In this document: piece after piece, positions 39,522 to 49,853 of the stretch | Position numbering within the stretch: the stretch's first letter is position 1 | Layout of the letters: each line of letters opens with the position of its first letter | Assembly: GCF_018613725.1 (NCBI RefSeq) | Contig: NZ_JAGGPS010000008.1 | Location: 30,904 to 94,903, forward strand | Reading direction: 5' to 3' | DNA from: Hymenobacter sp. ISL-91 | GTDB lineage: Bacteria > Bacteroidota > Bacteroidia > Cytophagales > Hymenobacteraceae | Length of the DNA stretch: 64,000 nt | Translations under genes and position numbers: made by a program | The notes under the pieces: model-generated | The model's input: the letters and a program-made list of their open reading frames with translations, nothing else | Database searches by the model: none | Told to the model about the DNA's origin: nothing

Positions 39522-41045
39522 TTACAACTGCTCGAAAATGCGCGAGAAGCTTACGGCCTCGCCAATGTAGCCGCGCAGCTCCGAGATGGGCATGCGGGTC
39601 TGTTCGCGCGAGTCGCGGTGGCGTACTGTTACGGTATCGTCCTCCAGCGTCTGGCCGTCTACCACGATGCAGAAGGGCGTGCCGATAAGGTCCTGGCGGG
39701 TGTAGCGCTTACCGATGGCGTCGCGCTCCTCCATAATCACGCGGAAATCGTGGCGCAGGCTGTTGAAGATTTCGGTGGCCTTCTCGGGCATGCCGTCCTT
39801 TTTAACCAGCGGGAAAATGGCCGCCTTGATGGGCGCTACGGCCGGATGCAGGCGCAACAGAGTGCGGGTTTTGGTTTGCTGCTGCTCGCCTTCGCCCTCG
39901 GTAATGGTTTCTTCCTGGTAAGCCTGGCACAGCGTGGCCAGAAACAGGCGGTCGGCGCCGGCCGAGGTTTCCACCACGAAGGGCACGTAGTTGCCGTAGG
40001 CCTTCCCGGTTTCGGGGTCAATGTCGGCATCAAAGTACTGCTGCTTCTTCTTGCTCAGAGCTTGGTGCTGGCTCAGGTCGAAGTCGCCGCGCGAATGGAT
40101 GCCCTCGATTTCCTTGAAGCCGAAGGGGAATTCATACTCGATATCGACAGCGGCCTTGGCGTAGTGGGCCAGCTTTTCGTGGTCGTGGAACCGGAGTTTC
40201 TCGGTGGGCAGGCCCATTACCTCGTGCCAGCGGCGGCGCATGGTTTTCCAGTGCTCGTACCACTCGCCCTCGGTGCCGGGGCGAACAAAAAACTGCAACT
40301 CCATCTGCTCGAACTCGCGCATCCGGAAGATGAACTGCCGGGCCACAATTTCGTTGCGGAAGGCCTTGCCGATCTGGGCAATACCGAACGGCACCTTCTG
40401 GCGGGCCGATTTCTGCACGTTCAGGAAGTTGACGAAGATGCCCTGGGCCGTTTCGGGGCGCAGGTATATCTGGCTCGAATCTTCGGCCACCGCGCCTACC
40501 TGCGTGCTGAACATAAGGTTGAACTGGCGCACCTCAGTCCAGTTGCCGGTTTTACTGATGGGGCAAACGATTTTCTCATCAATGATGAGTTGTTTGACGC
40601 CGGCCAGATCCTCAGCCGTCAGCAGGCGTCCCATTTCGGCTAGGAGGGTTTCGGCGCGGGCCAGCTCGCCGTTTTTCTCGTACTCGGCGGCTTTGTCTTC
40701 GAGCAACACGTCGGCGCGGTAGCGCTTCTTGCTGTCGAGGTTGTCAATCATGGGGTCCGAGAAGCCATCGACGTGGCCCGAGGCTTTCCAAGTGAGCGGG
40801 TGCATGAAAATAGCTGCATCGAGGCCCACCACGTTCTGGTGCAGCTGGGTCATGGCTTTCCACCAGAGCTGCTTGAGGTTGTTTTTGAGCTCCACGCCGT
40901 TGGGGCCATAGTCGTACACGGCGGCCAGGCCGTCATAGATTTCCGACGACTGGAATACGAAGCCGTATTCCTTGGCGTGCGACACGATGTTGGCCAGCGT
41001 GCCTTCGGTAGTGGCCGCGGCGGCGGGTTTGGGGGCGTTGCTCAT
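39522..41045 (-). CDS. glyS: Glycine-tRNA ligase (homodimeric type)
   Basis: Class II synthetase charging tRNA-Gly, single-chain alpha2 form. The ATG at 41045 gives MSNAPKPAAAATTEGTLANI and 507 residues; the ORF open to 41132 adds a non-conserved stretch. Motif 2 region FRNEIVARQFIFRMREFEQM, PETAQGIFVNFLNVQKSARQ and the motif 3 equivalent VVETSAGADRLFLATLCQAY are intact. The anticodon-binding domain is at the C-terminus (QDLIGTPFCIVVDGQTLEDD). Divergent from the PiT transporter gene. Confidence 0.96.
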   Translation of the reverse strand: MSNAPKPAAAATTEGTLANIVSHAKEYGFVFQSSEIYDGLAAVYDYGPNGVELKNNLKQLWWKAMTQLHQNVVGLDAAIFMHPLTWKASGHVDGFSDPMIDNLDSKKRYRADVLLEDKAAEYEKNGELARAETLLAEMGRLLTAEDLAGVKQLIIDEKIVCPISKTGNWTEVRQFNLMFSTQVGAVAEDSSQIYLRPETAQGIFVNFLNVQKSARQKVPFGIAQIGKAFRNEIVARQFIFRMREFEQMELQFFVRPGTEGEWYEHWKTMRRRWHEVMGLPTEKLRFHDHEKLAHYAKAAVDIEYEFPFGFKEIEGIHSRGDFDLSQHQALSKKKQQYFDADIDPETGKAYGNYVPFVVETSAGADRLFLATLCQAYQEETITEGEGEQQQTKTRTLLRLHPAVAPIKAAIFPLVKKDGMPEKATEIFNSLRHDFRVIMEERDAIGKRYTRQDLIGTPFCIVVDGQTLEDDTVTVRHRDSREQTRMPISELRGYIGEAVSFSRIFEQL

Positions 41046-41099
41046 GGCAGATGCGGGGTTGAGAGAAGAGTCGTTTCGGGCAAAGCACGTAACGACAGG

Positions 41100-41126
41100 C
41101 AAAAGTAACCAAAGCCTCGCCCGCAA
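41100..41126 (-). promoter_or_regulatory. Possible promoter for glyS
   Basis: Minus-strand TACTTTTG (41100-41107) fits the -7 box, with TTG (41124-41126) 16 bp further upstream. It lies 55 bp before the glyS ATG. Spacing is a little short. Confidence 0.4.
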
Positions 41127-41247
41127 CCGCACCCTGGTGTAAAACGGCTTCTCTGACAGTTGGAAGGCAGATTTCAGCCGTAGTTGGCAATCCTGCGTTT
41201 AGCCCTCCAGCCGGCCAACCAGCCGGGCCAGTAACAATTTCATAACC

Positions 41248-42750: not shown

Positions 42751-42784
42751 AAAAAGCCACTCCGAAATTCGGAGTGGCTTTTTT
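42751..42784. terminator. Terminator after the PiT gene
   Basis: AAAAAGCCACTCCGA pairs with TCGGAGTGGCTTTTT around AAT, ending in six T (42779-42784). It is a canonical rho-independent terminator, usable in both directions. Confidence 0.92.
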
Positions 42785-42875: not shown

Positions 42876-42918
42876 TTATCAACTTATCAACAGCTAAAAG
42901 GCCGGGGTTTGTGGATAA
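42876..42918. promoter_or_regulatory. Outlying DnaA-box cluster
   Basis: TTATCAACT (42876-42884), TTATCAACA (42884-42892) and TGTGGATAA (42910-42918, minus orientation, perfect) lie within 43 bp. They sit 1.3 kb left of the main DnaA-box cluster and may form part of a bipartite origin, or an independent DnaA-binding site. Confidence 0.6.
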
Positions 42919-42925
42919 CTACAGT

Positions 42926-43408
42926 CTAAGCGGGCCATTGCACTTCTAAATCCTCATCAATAAACACCCCGAAGTTAACGAACTGTAGCTCCTCATCTTC
43001 GAAATACATGTCGATCATTTCCTTCTCATAGGAAATGCGCATCTCCCCGGTGTCCATTTTTTCAATCTCGCTTTGCTCGTGGCCGTGGCGCTGCATCAGT
43101 TCCTGAATCTGCTCGGGGCTGCGGCCATGAATAGCTTCGCCGTAGAGCCGGATGCCAGGGTGGTCGGTTTCGATGCAGCTCAGGCGGTAGTCATCTTCGC
43201 GGTCGAAGTAAAGCGAGTAGCCTTCGTCGAGGTAGTTCCAGGCCTGGTGCTCAAACTCGTCATCGTCTTCCGACTCTTCAATTTCCTCGGGCTCGCCCAT
43301 CAGCGAGCGAACCTCGTCCTGGGAGGCGCCAAACTTGAGCGGCCCCATGCCGGTACCAAGGCGGATTTCGTGTTCGTCGGTGCTGGAGGGTTGGGCAGGG
43401 TGTTGCAT
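42926..43408 (-). CDS. Acidic protein of unknown function
   Basis: A 160-residue, strongly acidic cytoplasmic protein. Near the N-terminus, LGTGMGPLKFGASQDEVRSL MGEPEE resembles the start of small immunity- or SMI1-like proteins; WNYLDEGYSLYFDREDDYRL follows. No catalytic motif was recognised and I cannot assign a family with confidence. It lies between outlying DnaA boxes and the DUF4385 gene, and is flanked by a TAGCT-rich hairpin. Confidence 0.65.
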   Translation of the reverse strand: MQHPAQPSSTDEHEIRLGTGMGPLKFGASQDEVRSLMGEPEEIEESEDDDEFEHQAWNYLDEGYSLYFDREDDYRLSCIETDHPGIRLYGEAIHGRSPEQIQELMQRHGHEQSEIEKMDTGEMRISYEKEMIDMYFEDEELQFVNFGVFIDEDLEVQWPA

Positions 43409-43527: not shown

Positions 43528-44019
43528 TCACTTGCCGTAGCGTTCCTGAAACTCGGCGCGCTGCTCCTGGTAGTCGGGGTGGGCGCGGGCCTCGTCCCAT
43601 TTGGCTTTAAAGATGGCGGCCGATTTGGCCTTTACGGGGTCTTCGGGGGCGCGGGGTAGCTCGGGGCGGCCGTGGGCGCCACTCTGGCCTTTTTTGTCGT
43701 CGGGCACGGGGCCATCGTACTTTTTGCCGCCGCGGTGGTTGGCGTAGCGCCGGGCGCGGGTGTAACCCATCTGCAGAAACTTGCGGGCCATGTCGGCCCC
43801 CACAAAGTCGTGGGCCTTCAGGTAAGCCTCAAACAGCCCGTAAATAGTATCGGCCGACTCCCGGGCCACCTCGGGCGTCCGGAAGCGCCAGTGGGGCAGA
43901 ATCTCGCCTTTATAGGGCTGTACCAATAGCACACCCTGCTCGCCCTTGCCCACCCGGTACAGTTCGGGGTGGCGGCGGAAATCCACGGCAGCAAAATCGA
44001 GGGTGTAGTCGAAGGGCAT
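43528..44019 (-). CDS. DUF4385 family protein
   Basis: A 163-residue protein from the ATG at 44019 (MPFDYTLDFAAVDFRRHPEL); the longer frame to 44103 runs into the origin region and looks non-coding. PYKGEILPHWRFRTPEVARE, ADMARKFLQMGYTRARRYAN and HRGGKKYDG are the conserved DUF4385 blocks. The family is uncharacterised, soluble and widely spread. It borders the candidate origin, which may simply be local gene order. Confidence 0.9.
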   Translation of the reverse strand: MPFDYTLDFAAVDFRRHPELYRVGKGEQGVLLVQPYKGEILPHWRFRTPEVARESADTIYGLFEAYLKAHDFVGADMARKFLQMGYTRARRYANHRGGKKYDGPVPDDKKGQSGAHGRPELPRAPEDPVKAKSAAIFKAKWDEARAHPDYQEQRAEFQERYGK

Positions 44020-44190
44020 AGGCGGCAGCCGGGCAACCGCCGGCAAGGAGCAACAGCCCTGTATACGCGGCTTCGCCCGGCGGGGCTGCCCCGGTTGCGG
44101 CAAAACCCGCTAACTGGGCCCTGGCAGCGTGGCGCCGGCTTCCGGCCCGGCACCGGCCGCTAGGCAAGGCGTTTTCTGAAACCGGCCTGC

Positions 44191-44708
44191 TTATCCACAA
44201 GCTTAATAACTTTTGAAATATCTTTTTTTAAATAAATCTTTTTAATCCCCATCGTTAGGGCTGTTGATAAGTGGATAAGAAAAGCAGGTTATCCACGGTC
44301 GGGATAACATGTGCACAAGACCCTACTTATCCACCGTCTGCCAACAGGGTGTGTGGATAATAAACAGCTTATTTACAGATGCTTATAGGAGTTTTTCACA
44401 ATCCACAGGACTTATCCCGATATCCACAATCCACAGCCCGGGACCGATGTGGATTGTGGGATTCTTGGGGGATAGTTATCCACCCTTATCCACCAATGCT
44501 TAGGTGGATAATAGGGCTGTTAGGGCGGCCGGACTACCAAAAAAAGATGTCCGCAACTTCTCCACGCGTTATCCCCATGTTTCCCCATCCTTATCCACAG
44601 GTTATGCGTGCAGATGCTGCAAACGTGGAAAACTATGTGGATTAGCGCCGGTCAGGGGTAACAAAAAGCCACTGGCGCCACCCAACCGCCGTTTTATGCT
44701 GTGGATAT
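44191..44708. other. oriC: Candidate chromosomal replication origin (oriC)
   Basis: Perfect DnaA boxes TTATCCACA lie at 44191-44199, 44352-44360 (minus) and 44591-44599. One-mismatch boxes include 44262-44270 (TGTTGATAA), 44270-44278, 44289-44297, 44327-44335, 44476-44484, 44486-44494, 44503-44511, 44569-44577, 44636-44644 and 44700-44708. An AT-rich stretch at 44208-44250 is a likely unwinding element. A 12-bp inverted repeat (44424-44435/44448-44459) of box-like CCACAATCCACA sits in the middle. No gene occupies the region. This density is typical only of origins. DnaA is not encoded nearby, but mnmG (gidA), often origin-linked, is 3.3 kb away. Confidence 0.85.
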
Positions 44709-44885
44709 CTTTCAGGCCCGCTTCCTATATAGCGCGAAATAGGATTATGGACAGCCAACAACTCATCGGAAGCCGACCGGGCCCGCTGGCCGAGCTGGGG
44801 TAGCAGCCCCACCAACCCATGAGCTAATACGGCCTGCCAGACAGGGATGCGGCCTGCCTACTTCGGCCTACCGGTTCGGCCCCAA

Positions 44886-44926
44886 CGCAAAAGCCCGAAT
44901 CCAGAAGACGGATTCGGGCTTTTGCG
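44886..44926. terminator. Terminator after the Ig-like lipoprotein gene
   Basis: CGCAAAAGCCCGAATCC (44886-44902) pairs perfectly with GGATTCGGGCTTTTGCG (44910-44926) around AGAAGAC. The stem contains an A/T tract that gives U-rich 3' ends on the minus strand. Confidence 0.88.
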
Positions 44927-44950
44927 TGTATGAAGCTATAAAGGGTGGCG

Positions 44951-46573
44951 TCAGAAGCTCAGCGTCTCCACGTTGTCGAAGTTGGAGCGGATGGTAATGG
45001 GCTTCGGAAAGAGGAACACCGGCTCGGGGTCCGCCTTCAGGTCGGGGTCGCCGCCCTGCCAGCGGCCGTCCTGGTTGCTGTCGATGAGCACGCGCAGGCG
45101 GTAGGTGGCCGGCGCGAGGTTGTCGAAGCGGTAGCTGCCTTTGGGCGTATCGAGGCTCGACAGCACCAGGCCCTTTTCGTCGAGCAGTTGCACCCAGTAG
45201 CGCTTGGCCGTGGTTTGAACGGGGCCGCTAAGCGTGCCGGTGGTCGTCTGGTCGACTACGCGCAGCTTGAGCGGCTGCAGCCCCAGCAGCCGGCCCGTAA
45301 CGCTCTGGATGGCGGTGCTGTCGAGCAGCAGCGTAATGGTTTTGCGGGCTTTGGTGTCGAGGTTGACGCTGAGCGTGGTGCGGTCGGGGCTGAGGCTGCC
45401 ATCCTGGGGCAGGCGTAGCGGCCGGCGCTTCAGCGAGTCTTCTACCAGCGTACCAATGGGCTTTTTGGGGTCGATGCGGATAGGCTCGGTGAACACGAAT
45501 TTCACCTGGCCCTGACGGTACACTTCCTTGGGGCTGCCCTCTACGGTATACGCTGGCACTGGCTTGGGAGCCTTGGCGGGCGGCTCGGCAAATTTCACCG
45601 CAATCGTGTCGCGGGCCACGTTGCCGGCGCTGTCGGTGGCGGCCAGCAGGTAGCGGCCTTCAGTGAGGGCGGCCGTACGGTACAACACGGCCGTGCGGTT
45701 GCGCTCGGTTAGCTGCACGGCCTCCTGCAGGGCCGGTGGCGGCGCGGTGGCACTGCCCAGCGGCGCGAGTGTAGCCGTCAGCAGGCCCTCGTTGTAGCTG
45801 ATGCGCTGATCGGTGGGCGCGCTTTTTTGGGTGGTGATGAGGGGGCGGCGGCTGTCGGGCTTGGTCAGCACGAAGCGCAACGTGTCGGGCCGGGGGCCCA
45901 CTGTCAGCAGCTCGCCGCCGGGCCGGTAGGCTACTGCTTCGGGCTCCTCGTAGCGGTTTGTCTGGTTTTTGTCGGCCAGCGCGTAGGCGCGGTAGCGGCC
46001 TTCTTTCAGGTAGCGAAACGCAAAGCTGCCCTGCTTATCGGTACGGGCCAGGTAGGTGGGCACGCCCCGCCGAATGTCGGAAGTATCGGCCTCGGGGTAG
46101 AGCAGCACCGAAACCCCCTCGGCCGGCTGTTGGCTCAGCAAACCCACCACACTGCCCCGCACCGCGCCCGAATCGAGCTGGGCCCCGGTGCTGAAGCTGA
46201 CCGATACGTTGGCCGCCTTGTTCTTCTCGGTGATGTCGCTGATGGCGTCGCCGAAGTTGAACGAGTAGGTGGTGTTGGGCCGGAAGGGCTGCTCGAAGGT
46301 GAGCGTAATGGAGGTGCGGTCTTCGCGGATTTTGTAGGTATTGGCTGGGTCGAGTACCGGAGCTACAAGCAGATTCTTGGCCAGGTCCGTCAGCTGCACC
46401 TGCTCCGAAAACTCCAGCCGCACGCTCTGGCCCGTTACGTTGCGGGCCCCGTTGGCAGGCGTAGAGCTGACGAGCTTGGGCAGCGTCGTGTCGCGGGCAC
46501 CGCCCTCGGGCGAGCTGATGGCCGCGCAGCCGCTCAGGGTTCCGGCCGTAATCAGAAAGAAAGCGATGCGCAT
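44951..46573 (-). CDS. Lipoprotein with Ig-like (Big_5) and carboxypeptidase-regulatory-like domains
   Basis: A 540-residue surface or periplasmic lipoprotein; the lipobox TLSGCAAIS places Cys at residue 16. Residues ~25-130 carry an SbsA-type Ig-like domain (PKLVSSTPANGARNVTGQSV, EFSEQVQL). Residues ~135-215 resemble the CarboxypepD_reg fold (GSVVGLLSQQPAEGVSVLLY, TDKQGSFAFRYLKEGRYRAY). Further beta-rich repeats follow, ending LDTPKGSYRFDNLAPATYRL and RVLIDSNQDGRWQGGDPDLK. This gene is found in the mnmG-methyltransferase neighbourhood of many Bacteroidota. Role unknown, possibly structural. Confidence 0.85.
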   Translation of the reverse strand: MRIAFFLITAGTLSGCAAISSPEGGARDTTLPKLVSSTPANGARNVTGQSVRLEFSEQVQLTDLAKNLLVAPVLDPANTYKIREDRTSITLTFEQPFRPNTTYSFNFGDAISDITEKNKAANVSVSFSTGAQLDSGAVRGSVVGLLSQQPAEGVSVLLYPEADTSDIRRGVPTYLARTDKQGSFAFRYLKEGRYRAYALADKNQTNRYEEPEAVAYRPGGELLTVGPRPDTLRFVLTKPDSRRPLITTQKSAPTDQRISYNEGLLTATLAPLGSATAPPPALQEAVQLTERNRTAVLYRTAALTEGRYLLAATDSAGNVARDTIAVKFAEPPAKAPKPVPAYTVEGSPKEVYRQGQVKFVFTEPIRIDPKKPIGTLVEDSLKRRPLRLPQDGSLSPDRTTLSVNLDTKARKTITLLLDSTAIQSVTGRLLGLQPLKLRVVDQTTTGTLSGPVQTTAKRYWVQLLDEKGLVLSSLDTPKGSYRFDNLAPATYRLRVLIDSNQDGRWQGGDPDLKADPEPVFLFPKPITIRSNFDNVETLSF

Positions 46574-47984: not shown

Positions 47985-49853
47985 CTACCGGCCCAGGTAC
48001 ACCATCAGCACCGACACATCGGCCGGGCTGACGCCGCTGATGCGGCTGGCCTGGCCCAGGGTTTCGGGCTGAATTTTGAGCAGCTTTTCGCGGGCTTCGT
48101 GCGAGAGGGCGGGCATGGCCTGGTAGTCGAGACGGCCCTGAATAATGAAGTTTTCCAACTCCTGCATGCGGGCAGCCTGCTGGTGCTCCTTTTCCAGGTA
48201 GGCCTCGTACTTCACCAGAATTTCGGCCTGCTCCAACGCGTCGGGGCGGTAAGGCGCTAGGGCCAGCGCGAGGCCGGGCAGAGCGGCGGCCAAAGCCGGC
48301 AGCTCCACGCCGGGGCGGCGCAGCAGGTTTACGGCCCGGGTTTTCTCGCTGATTTCGGCCGAGCCGATTTCCGTGAGCCAGCCGTTGATGTCGGCGGCTT
48401 CGATGCCGAAGTTCTTCAGCAGCTTAGCTACTTCCTTGGTCTGCTGCTCTTTTTCGCGCACTAGCTGCATGCGCTCCTCCGAGGCCAGGCCCAGTTCGTA
48501 GCCCAGCGGCGTCAGGCGCAGGTCGGCGTTGTCCTGACGTAGCAGCAGGCGGTGCTCGGCGCGGCTCGTGAACATGCGGTAGGGCTCGTCGGTGCCCTTG
48601 TTCACGAGGTCATCAATAAGCACGCCGATGTAGGCCTGGCTGCGCGAAAGCACAAATGGGGCCTCGCCGTGCACCTTGCGGTGGGCGTTGATGCCGGCCA
48701 TCAGGCCCTGGCAGGCGGCTTCCTCGTAGCCGGTAGTGCCGTTTATCTGGCCCGCGAAGTACAGGTTGGCTACCCGCTTGGTTTCCAGCGTGAGGTGAAG
48801 CTGCGTCGGCGGGAAGAAGTCGTACTCGATGGCGTAGCCGGGGCGGAACATCTTGGCATTCTCGAAGCCGGCAATTTTGCGCAGGGCGCGGTATTGCACG
48901 TCTTCGGGCAGGCTGCTCGAAAAGCCGTTCACGTACACTTCCACCGTGCTCCAGCCCTCGGGCTCCACGAAAATCTGATGGCGGTCCTTGTCGGCGAAGC
49001 GGTTGATTTTGTCCTCTACGCTCGGGCAATAACGCGGCCCCAGCCCCTTGATGCGCCCTTGGAACATCGGCGACTTCTCGAAGCCCTCCTTCAGGATTTC
49101 GTGCACTTCGGGGTTGGTGTAGGTGATGTAGCAGGGCCGCTGCTTGGGCAGCGCGGGCGTATCGAGGTAGCTGAACTTGCCGGGCACCTCGTCGCCGGGC
49201 TGCTCCTCCATCTTGCTGTAGTCGAGGCTGCGGCCATCTACACGGGGCGGGGTGCCGGTTTTCATGCGGCCCGCCTCGAAGCCCAGCTCCAGCAGCTGCT
49301 CGGTGAGGCCAGTGCTGCCCTTCTCGGCCATGCGGCCGCCACCAAACTGCTTCTCGCCGATGTGGATGAGGCCGTTGAGGAAAGTGCCATTAGTCAGCAC
49401 CACCGACTTGGCCCGGAAGTCGATGCCGAGCTGGGTTTTCACGCCCACGCACACGCCGTCTTCCACCAGCAGGCCCGTTACGGCCTCCTGCCAGAAGTCC
49501 ACGTTGGGCGTCTGCTCCAGCGCCAAACGCCACTCCTCGGCAAAGCGCATCCGGTCCGATTGCGCCCGTGGGCTCCACATAGCGGGGCCCTTGGAGCGGT
49601 TCAGCATCCGGAACTGAATCATGGTTTTGTCGGTGATGATGCCCGACATGCCGCCCAGCGCGTCCACTTCGCGCACAATCTGCCCTTTGGCCACGCCGCC
49701 CATGGCCGGGTTGCACGACATCTGGGCGATGGTGTTCATGTTCATGGTAACCAGCAGGACTTTGGAGCCCAGCTTAGCGGCGGCGGCGGCGGCCTCGCAC
49801 CCGGCGTGGCCCGCACCCACCACTAGCACATCGTATTCTTCTTGCTGAAACAT
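47985..49853 (-). CDS. mnmG: tRNA uridine-5-carboxymethylaminomethyl modification enzyme MnmG (GidA)
   Basis: FAD-dependent enzyme that, with MnmE, modifies U34 of tRNAs decoding split boxes. It has 622 residues, normal length. The FAD-binding start [40 protein letters not shown] and [35 protein letters not shown] and [20 protein letters not shown] are all characteristic. In many bacteria gidA lies beside oriC; here the DnaA-box cluster is 3.3 kb downstream. A -7 element lies upstream. Confidence 0.97.

Follow-up and report, generated by a model that had tools for sequence, protein, structure and literature searches.

Does a dense group of DnaA boxes that lies far from dnaA mark the chromosomal origin of replication in Hymenobacter, and which of the sequences around it take part? 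The question is raised by a 64,000-nucleotide stretch of the Hymenobacter sp. ISL-91 genome (here called the window), in which an earlier note had proposed a candidate oriC with about 13 DnaA boxes in both orientations, 3 of them perfect and about 10 with one mismatch. Counting matches to TTATCCACA with at most one mismatch, we found 14 in the cluster, of which 3 are perfect, at 44191 (+), 44352 (-), and 44591 (+), and 11 carry one mismatch. Among 500 dinucleotide-preserving shuffles of 44104-44950, the same count had a mean of 0.18 and a maximum of 3. The cluster is therefore a dense group of DnaA boxes in noncoding DNA, slightly larger than first described. The 12-bp inverted repeat reported within it was also recovered, and in the genus alignment its arms are more conserved than its loop. 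The features discussed below are collected in Table 1.

Table 1. Coordinates of features at the candidate origin and its surroundings (window positions; strand given where one applies)
Feature	Positions	Strand	Description
Satellite DnaA module	42876..42918	+	Tandem double box and an inverted single box separated by 17 bp
160-aa protein gene, no Pfam match	42926..43408	-	End lies a few bases from satellite
DUF4385 gene	43528..44103	-	Between satellite and candidate oriC
DnaA-box cluster of candidate oriC	44191..44708		14 boxes in both orientations, none with more than one mismatch
Perfect DnaA box	44191..44199	+	Far side of putative unwinding element, which it faces
AT-rich putative DNA unwinding element	44208..44250	+	T-rich on the + strand
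Tandem double DnaA box, 8-bp step	44262..44278	-	TTATCCACTTATCAACA, directed toward putative unwinding element
12-bp inverted repeat with two box-like arms	44424..44459		Arms CCACAATCCACA / TGTGGATTGTGG
Inverted repeat	44888..44928		Between 3' end of Big_5 gene and candidate oriC; seen in the sequence
Big_5 (Ig-like) protein gene	44951..46573	-	Between candidate oriC and mnmG
mnmG (gidA)	47985..49853	-	PF01134, E value 1.8e-166

The genome to which the window belongs (4.03 Mb in 54 contigs) contains 9 perfect boxes, and 4 of these 9 fall within 1.7 kb at this locus, the fourth being part of the satellite module described below and not of the cluster. One-mismatch matches to TTATCCACA number 472 in the same genome, and no second dense cluster was found among roughly the first 100 of these places. 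A search for groups of at least 4 boxes per 600 bp, which covered the examined stretches of this genome outside the window, returned one further group, with 4 boxes in 80 bp, one of them perfect (C27:63193-63272, or L015 10193-10272); there is no cluster of oriC size at that place. Judged by eye, this smaller group lies upstream of an open frame resembling nrdB, which encodes the small subunit of ribonucleotide reductase. Because E. coli nrdA also has double boxes upstream, according to the accessible sections of PMC11317965, the two species may have DnaA control of nrd genes in common.

The gene setting agrees largely with the previous description: the DUF4385 and Ig-like genes flank the cluster, mnmG lies 3.3 kb away with its end at 47985, and dnaA is not adjacent but on a separate contig (C2). 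The length of the gene-free interval, given as 930 bp, holds if DUF4385 begins at an internal ATG near 44019 (MPFDYTL), which leaves about 931 bp, and shrinks to 847 bp with the listed TTG start at 44103. The setting had also been called unusual, and here a survey of mnmG loci led to the opposite view. A MnmG scan of genome contigs yielded 587 loci, of which the best 80 were retained and their organisms named; they come from Hymenobacter, Solirubrum, Rufibacter, Pontibacter, Adhaeribacter, Algoriphagus, Dyadobacter, and others, with a few from outside the Cytophagales (e.g., Saprospiraceae), and the MnmG of the window is up to 97 percent identical to its neighbors among them. Three of the 80 loci were too short, leaving 77 to be scored. 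At least 6 boxes per 600 bp occur within 6.5 kb downstream of mnmG in 53/77 loci, compared with 0/77 in the control stretch from the locus start to the mnmG end, where a single locus reached 5. A cluster that lies downstream of mnmG and not near dnaA is thus the common arrangement among the best 80 of 587 loci, whose counts are not independent because the loci are related.

Gene order beyond mnmG is also widely kept in this set. A Big_5 relative was found in 74 of the 80 loci, after mnmG where it could be placed, and the DUF4385 gene and the 160-aa gene come next in most Hymenobacter, Pontibacter, and Adhaeribacter loci; the three Rufibacter loci have the 160-aa gene without DUF4385. The 24 scored loci lacking at least 6 one-mismatch boxes include Solirubrum and all 12 from Rufibacter, Adhaeribacter, and Pontibacter. 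These 12 (L116 to L118 and L120 to L128) have few one-mismatch TTATCCACA boxes, yet 10 of them carry a double box with an AT-rich block. The box consensus of these three genera may be shifted from TTATCCACA.

The putative unwinding block noted earlier is borne out at the sequence level: it adjoins DnaA boxes, 35 of its 43 positions are A or T (A14, T21, C7, G1), and it is aligned across the genus. The tandem double box stands before it, as a box or box pair stands before the unwinding site in a basal unwinding system (BUS). Since the step is 8 bp, the two 9-mers of this double box share one base; the double DnaA boxes of E. coli are likewise closely spaced pairs but are 2 to 3 bp apart in the account available from PMC11317965. 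In an alignment of 25 sequences, box 44270 of the pair is the best conserved of all 14 (0.96) and box 44262 reaches 0.84. At least three DnaA-trios (NAN) within 16 bp were found on the box strand in 25/25 sequences (shuffled, 0.67) and on the other strand in 1/25 (shuffled, 0.28), the strand to be read being ambiguous.

A double box followed by AT-rich DNA was detected in 65/77 mnmG loci from the best 80 of 587, comprising 18/19 from Hymenobacter and Solirubrum, 10/12 from Rufibacter, Adhaeribacter, and Pontibacter, and 37/46 others. The form sought was loose (at most 2 mismatches, with the shared base and some variable positions left free), and the 70 bp after the double box had to exceed the region in A+T by at least 0.10. 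An equal stretch upstream of mnmG gave 0/77 on the same strand and 1/77 on the other strand. Because the form was modeled on the results of a first scan, these counts describe the loci and do not amount to a blind test. The top-scoring double box does not adjoin the AT peak in L114 and L115. Among the one-mismatch boxes of these regions, 8 bp is the most frequent tandem step up to 40 bp, with 33 pairs (satellites included), and the runner-up is 22 bp, with 29 pairs. As a sequence arrangement, the 8-bp-step tandem double box facing an AT-rich block is new here.

The locus is conserved within the genus. A blastn search with 44150-44760 matched 24 of 39 genomes, once each, these being the genome itself and 23 of 24 same-genus relatives; 0/14 genomes from other families of the order were matched. 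In G012, the only same-genus genome without a match, boxes are clustered downstream of mnmG, at 3458347-3459073. The region thus occurs once in each matching genome and at a conserved place relative to mnmG. In the 25-sequence alignment (columns up to 44620), identity to the window is 0.82 in box columns versus 0.62 in non-box columns; boxes 44270, 44591, 44476, and 44327 are best kept (0.90 to 0.96), and box 44503 is not kept (0.31). Three loci have an extra close box pair or trio, absent from the window, between the oriC cluster and DUF4385 (L108 15717-15742, L109 16021-16054, and L229 14056-14065). In a genome of the same order but another family, three perfect boxes lie about 2.9 kb downstream of mnmG (G028 C1:3670435-3670501).

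GC skew, which had been suggested as a check, favors the cluster over dnaA in three sampled relatives and shows no switch on the contig of the window. Skew was sampled in 20 stretches of 20 kb per genome in three relatives (G020, G012, and G006, the last unevenly at its end) and compared with a model that places the terminus opposite the origin; C3 of G006 was treated as a circle although that assembly consists of 4 contigs. The best skew origin of G020 is at 880 kb, with the cluster at 891 kb, and in G012 and G006 the raw skew maximum falls at the cluster. Permutation P values at the cluster were 0.11 (G020), 0.013 (G012), and 0.010 (G006) for raw skew and 0.083, 0.051, and 0.028, respectively, after regression on gene orientation, so that one of three raw tests and two of three corrected tests exceed 0.05. 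Along contiguous stretches, the two sides of the cluster have skews of -0.004 and +0.007 in G020 and of -0.017 and +0.009 in G006, which is the right sense but a small difference, and local skew tracks gene orientation. On the 225-kb contig that contains the window, no skew switch was found at the cluster, including in the 4-fold skew split by gene strand; the support from skew is for this reason moderate and comes from relatives only.

That missing switch would suit a locus that titrates DnaA or resembles datA, in which case the true origin would be elsewhere (e.g., at dnaA). The distance between cluster and dnaA is large, at 2.1 Mb in G020, 1.2 Mb in G006, 1.0 Mb in G012, and 1.1 Mb in G002, and the skew statistic is lower at dnaA than at the cluster in all six comparisons made in G020, G012, and G006. 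In the 20 kb sampled around dnaA, no 600-bp stretch has more than 2 one-mismatch boxes. The AT-rich block of the cluster faces a conserved double box. A titrating role for the whole cluster with an origin elsewhere is therefore very improbable. The dnaA locus was itself considered as the origin and rejected for the few boxes in its sampled 20 kb and its lower skew statistic in the three relatives.

Box density, conservation in the genus, the place downstream of mnmG, the double box with AT-rich DNA, and the sampled skew of relatives together lead us to read 44191-44708 as the very probable chromosomal oriC of Hymenobacter, with a probability of roughly 0.9, and the earlier proposal gains support from conservation, position, and the relatives' skew. 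Sequence, conservation, spacing, copy number, position, and agreement of skew in three relatives are direct observations; from them we infer DnaA binding and melting. DnaA would fill the cluster and the double box directed at the AT-rich block; this block would then melt, and the helicase would be loaded. For the mnmG loci of a bacterial order, this would supply an origin position that can be tested and, at the presumed melting site, a double-box layout common to them, and chromosomes of the genus numbered from dnaA would not begin at the origin.

Like this locus, E. coli oriC combines a box cluster and an AT-rich unwinding region near gidA (mnmG). The two are compared by layout, and the window differs in that two genes, Big_5 and another, separate mnmG from the cluster, with DUF4385 flanking the other side. 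For C. hutchinsonii, oriC plasmids have reportedly been built. The E. coli origin is placed between gidA and mioC (PMC10225481, as far as its text is available). Linkage to mnmG is already known as a prediction in other Bacteroidota: in Mariniflexile and Algorimicrobium, origins beside mnmG were predicted with Ori-Finder and checked against GC skew, which the Mariniflexile dnaA did not fit (PMC11278836 and PMC12843772). Those organisms are Flavobacteriaceae, and the accessible parts of both reports describe neither a double box nor a satellite.

The more novel part of the locus is the satellite, a 43-bp module that lies about 1.3 kb from the candidate oriC, outside the coordinates considered before, where it had been missed. 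Its pattern is TTATCMACTTATCMACA-N17-TGTGGATAA, and the copy in the window reads TTATCAACTTATCAACA-N17-TGTGGATAA. The inner part (box-N17-box) has no other place in the same genome at up to 2 mismatches. Allowing up to one mismatch, 117 of 120 same-genus genomes have the full pattern at a single site, G119 with two overlapping matches, one per strand. Two of the three misses have the satellite at 2 mismatches, and the third, an 81 percent complete genome, has none at 3. The reversed pattern, used as a control, gave no match in the 120 genomes. In a sample of the order, the satellite was present in 10/148 genomes, all 10 from the genus, and in 0/138 genomes outside it, only one of which belongs to the same family. 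Among the best 80 of 587 mnmG loci, none of the named loci of other genera has a satellite with the 17-bp gap, and looser box pairs at other gaps occur in L132, L142, and L170.

When 23 distinct copies are aligned, hardly any variation is seen in the three boxes, and what is kept of the spacer is mainly that it begins A-rich and ends rich in T or A. At the inner left box, 12 copies have TTATCCACA, 10 have TTATCAACA, and 1 has TTTTCCACA; at the right box, 22 have TGTGGATAA. Because the genome-wide pattern itself fixes the 17-bp gap, the preference for that gap rests on a free-gap scan (5 to 44 bp) of convergent box pairs in 18 named Hymenobacter and Solirubrum loci, in which 17 bp was commonest, with 18 cases, followed by 25 bp, with 12. 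In all 25 genomes for which both coordinates were available, the satellite occupies the unwinding side of the cluster, has the same relative strand, and is 1,078 to 1,531 bp from the matched oriC stretch (from the box cluster in G012). The flank did not reach the satellite in 2 of 23 relative loci, and the whole-genome pattern scan finds it in both of those genomes. In the window, the satellite is situated between the convergent PHO4 and 160-aa genes, an order shared by those named Hymenobacter loci that extend this far; lying between two 3' ends, it is not at the place expected of a promoter operator. A terminator-like hairpin of 15 pairs (42751-42783) lies between PHO4 and the satellite.

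As an inverted repeat where two genes converge, the satellite could also be a transcription terminator or an RNA element of those genes. Yet it is absent from the terminator scan, PHO4 has a terminator-like hairpin of its own, no Rfam match reaches the gathering threshold, and the conserved outer box lies outside the stem. The left box moreover varies without a matching change in the right box, and a left box that varies while the right box stays constant fits protein binding better than an RNA stem. The terminator scan, Rfam, and the uncompensated left-box changes make such a role highly unlikely.

The satellite is a second DnaA-box region at a distance from the first, as in bipartite origins. 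We read it as a candidate distal DnaA-binding element, which would serve either as loop partner of oriC or in the manner of DARS; looping, a reading by analogy that we put a little short of an even chance, is the likelier of the two. In that case DnaA bound to the satellite would contact the orisome, with the 1.3 kb between them looped out. The constant side, constant strand, and narrow range of distances fit this reading. The origins of B. subtilis and H. pylori are bipartite (PMC8235120), and in B. subtilis a distal box was functional 462 bp away, with helical phasing that was taken as looping (PMC6669920), a distance that the 1,078 to 1,531 bp observed here exceed. To the extent that these sources are accessible, such origins resemble the window in having two box regions split by a gene, one of them with an unwinding element. 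They differ in that dnaA separates their two regions, whereas the DUF4385 and 160-aa genes do so in the window, and in that their second region is a cluster and not a single 43-bp module.

It is less likely, although conceivable by analogy, that the satellite is a reactivation site similar to DARS, in which opposed boxes would keep ADP-DnaA in a head-to-head arrangement and stimulate nucleotide exchange; exchange at the satellite would then set the initiation potential beside oriC. The DARS sites of E. coli lie far from oriC, unlike the satellite, which stays 1.1 to 1.5 kb from it on one side in 25/25 genomes. In favor of such a role, two of the three satellite boxes are opposed across a fixed gap, and each genome has one site. 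The cores of E. coli DARS1 and DARS2 likewise consist of three uniquely arranged DnaA boxes, of which I and II are opposed, in the available text of PMC8682772. The likeness is one of layout; the satellite differs in its linkage to oriC, and it has an 8-bp step and a 17-bp gap.

More doubtful still is the idea that the satellite merely titrates DnaA or serves as a reserve cluster without precise geometry. In E. coli, boxes concentrate near oriC and titration was measured there, according to the accessible part of PMC12371093. Titration requires neither a fixed gap nor a set orientation, and 17 bp was the commonest gap when the gap was left free in 18 loci.

Returning to looping and to nucleotide exchange by DnaA, we tentatively propose a two-part Hymenobacter origin of new layout, in which an mnmG-linked oriC and a single-copy, spacing-locked module would control initiation by one or the other. 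On this proposal the oriC and the module, 1.1 to 1.5 kb distant, would be separated by genes without a known replication role, and the satellite would repeat the layout of the melting core (double box, gap, opposed box), with 17 bp replacing the AT-rich element. Looping and any regulatory role are what we infer here. The satellite could represent a new type of element for origin control; if it works, it would show that exact spacing and orientation can tie a dedicated DnaA control element to oriC with no dnaA between them. Under the same condition, its 43 bp would make a small target for studies of how DnaA boxes at a distance exert their effect. A search confined to the open literature in PMC found no paper on Hymenobacter DnaA boxes and no entry naming the module.

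Two further features of the neighborhood deserve mention. The long inverted repeat between the Big_5 gene and the candidate oriC is perhaps a terminator and could shield the origin from transcription; its Rfam matches are weak and below gathering, and it is absent from the terminator scan. A class II aminoacyl-tRNA synthetase gene also lies near the origin (39522-41132), and the start of its product looks like that of a glycyl-tRNA synthetase.
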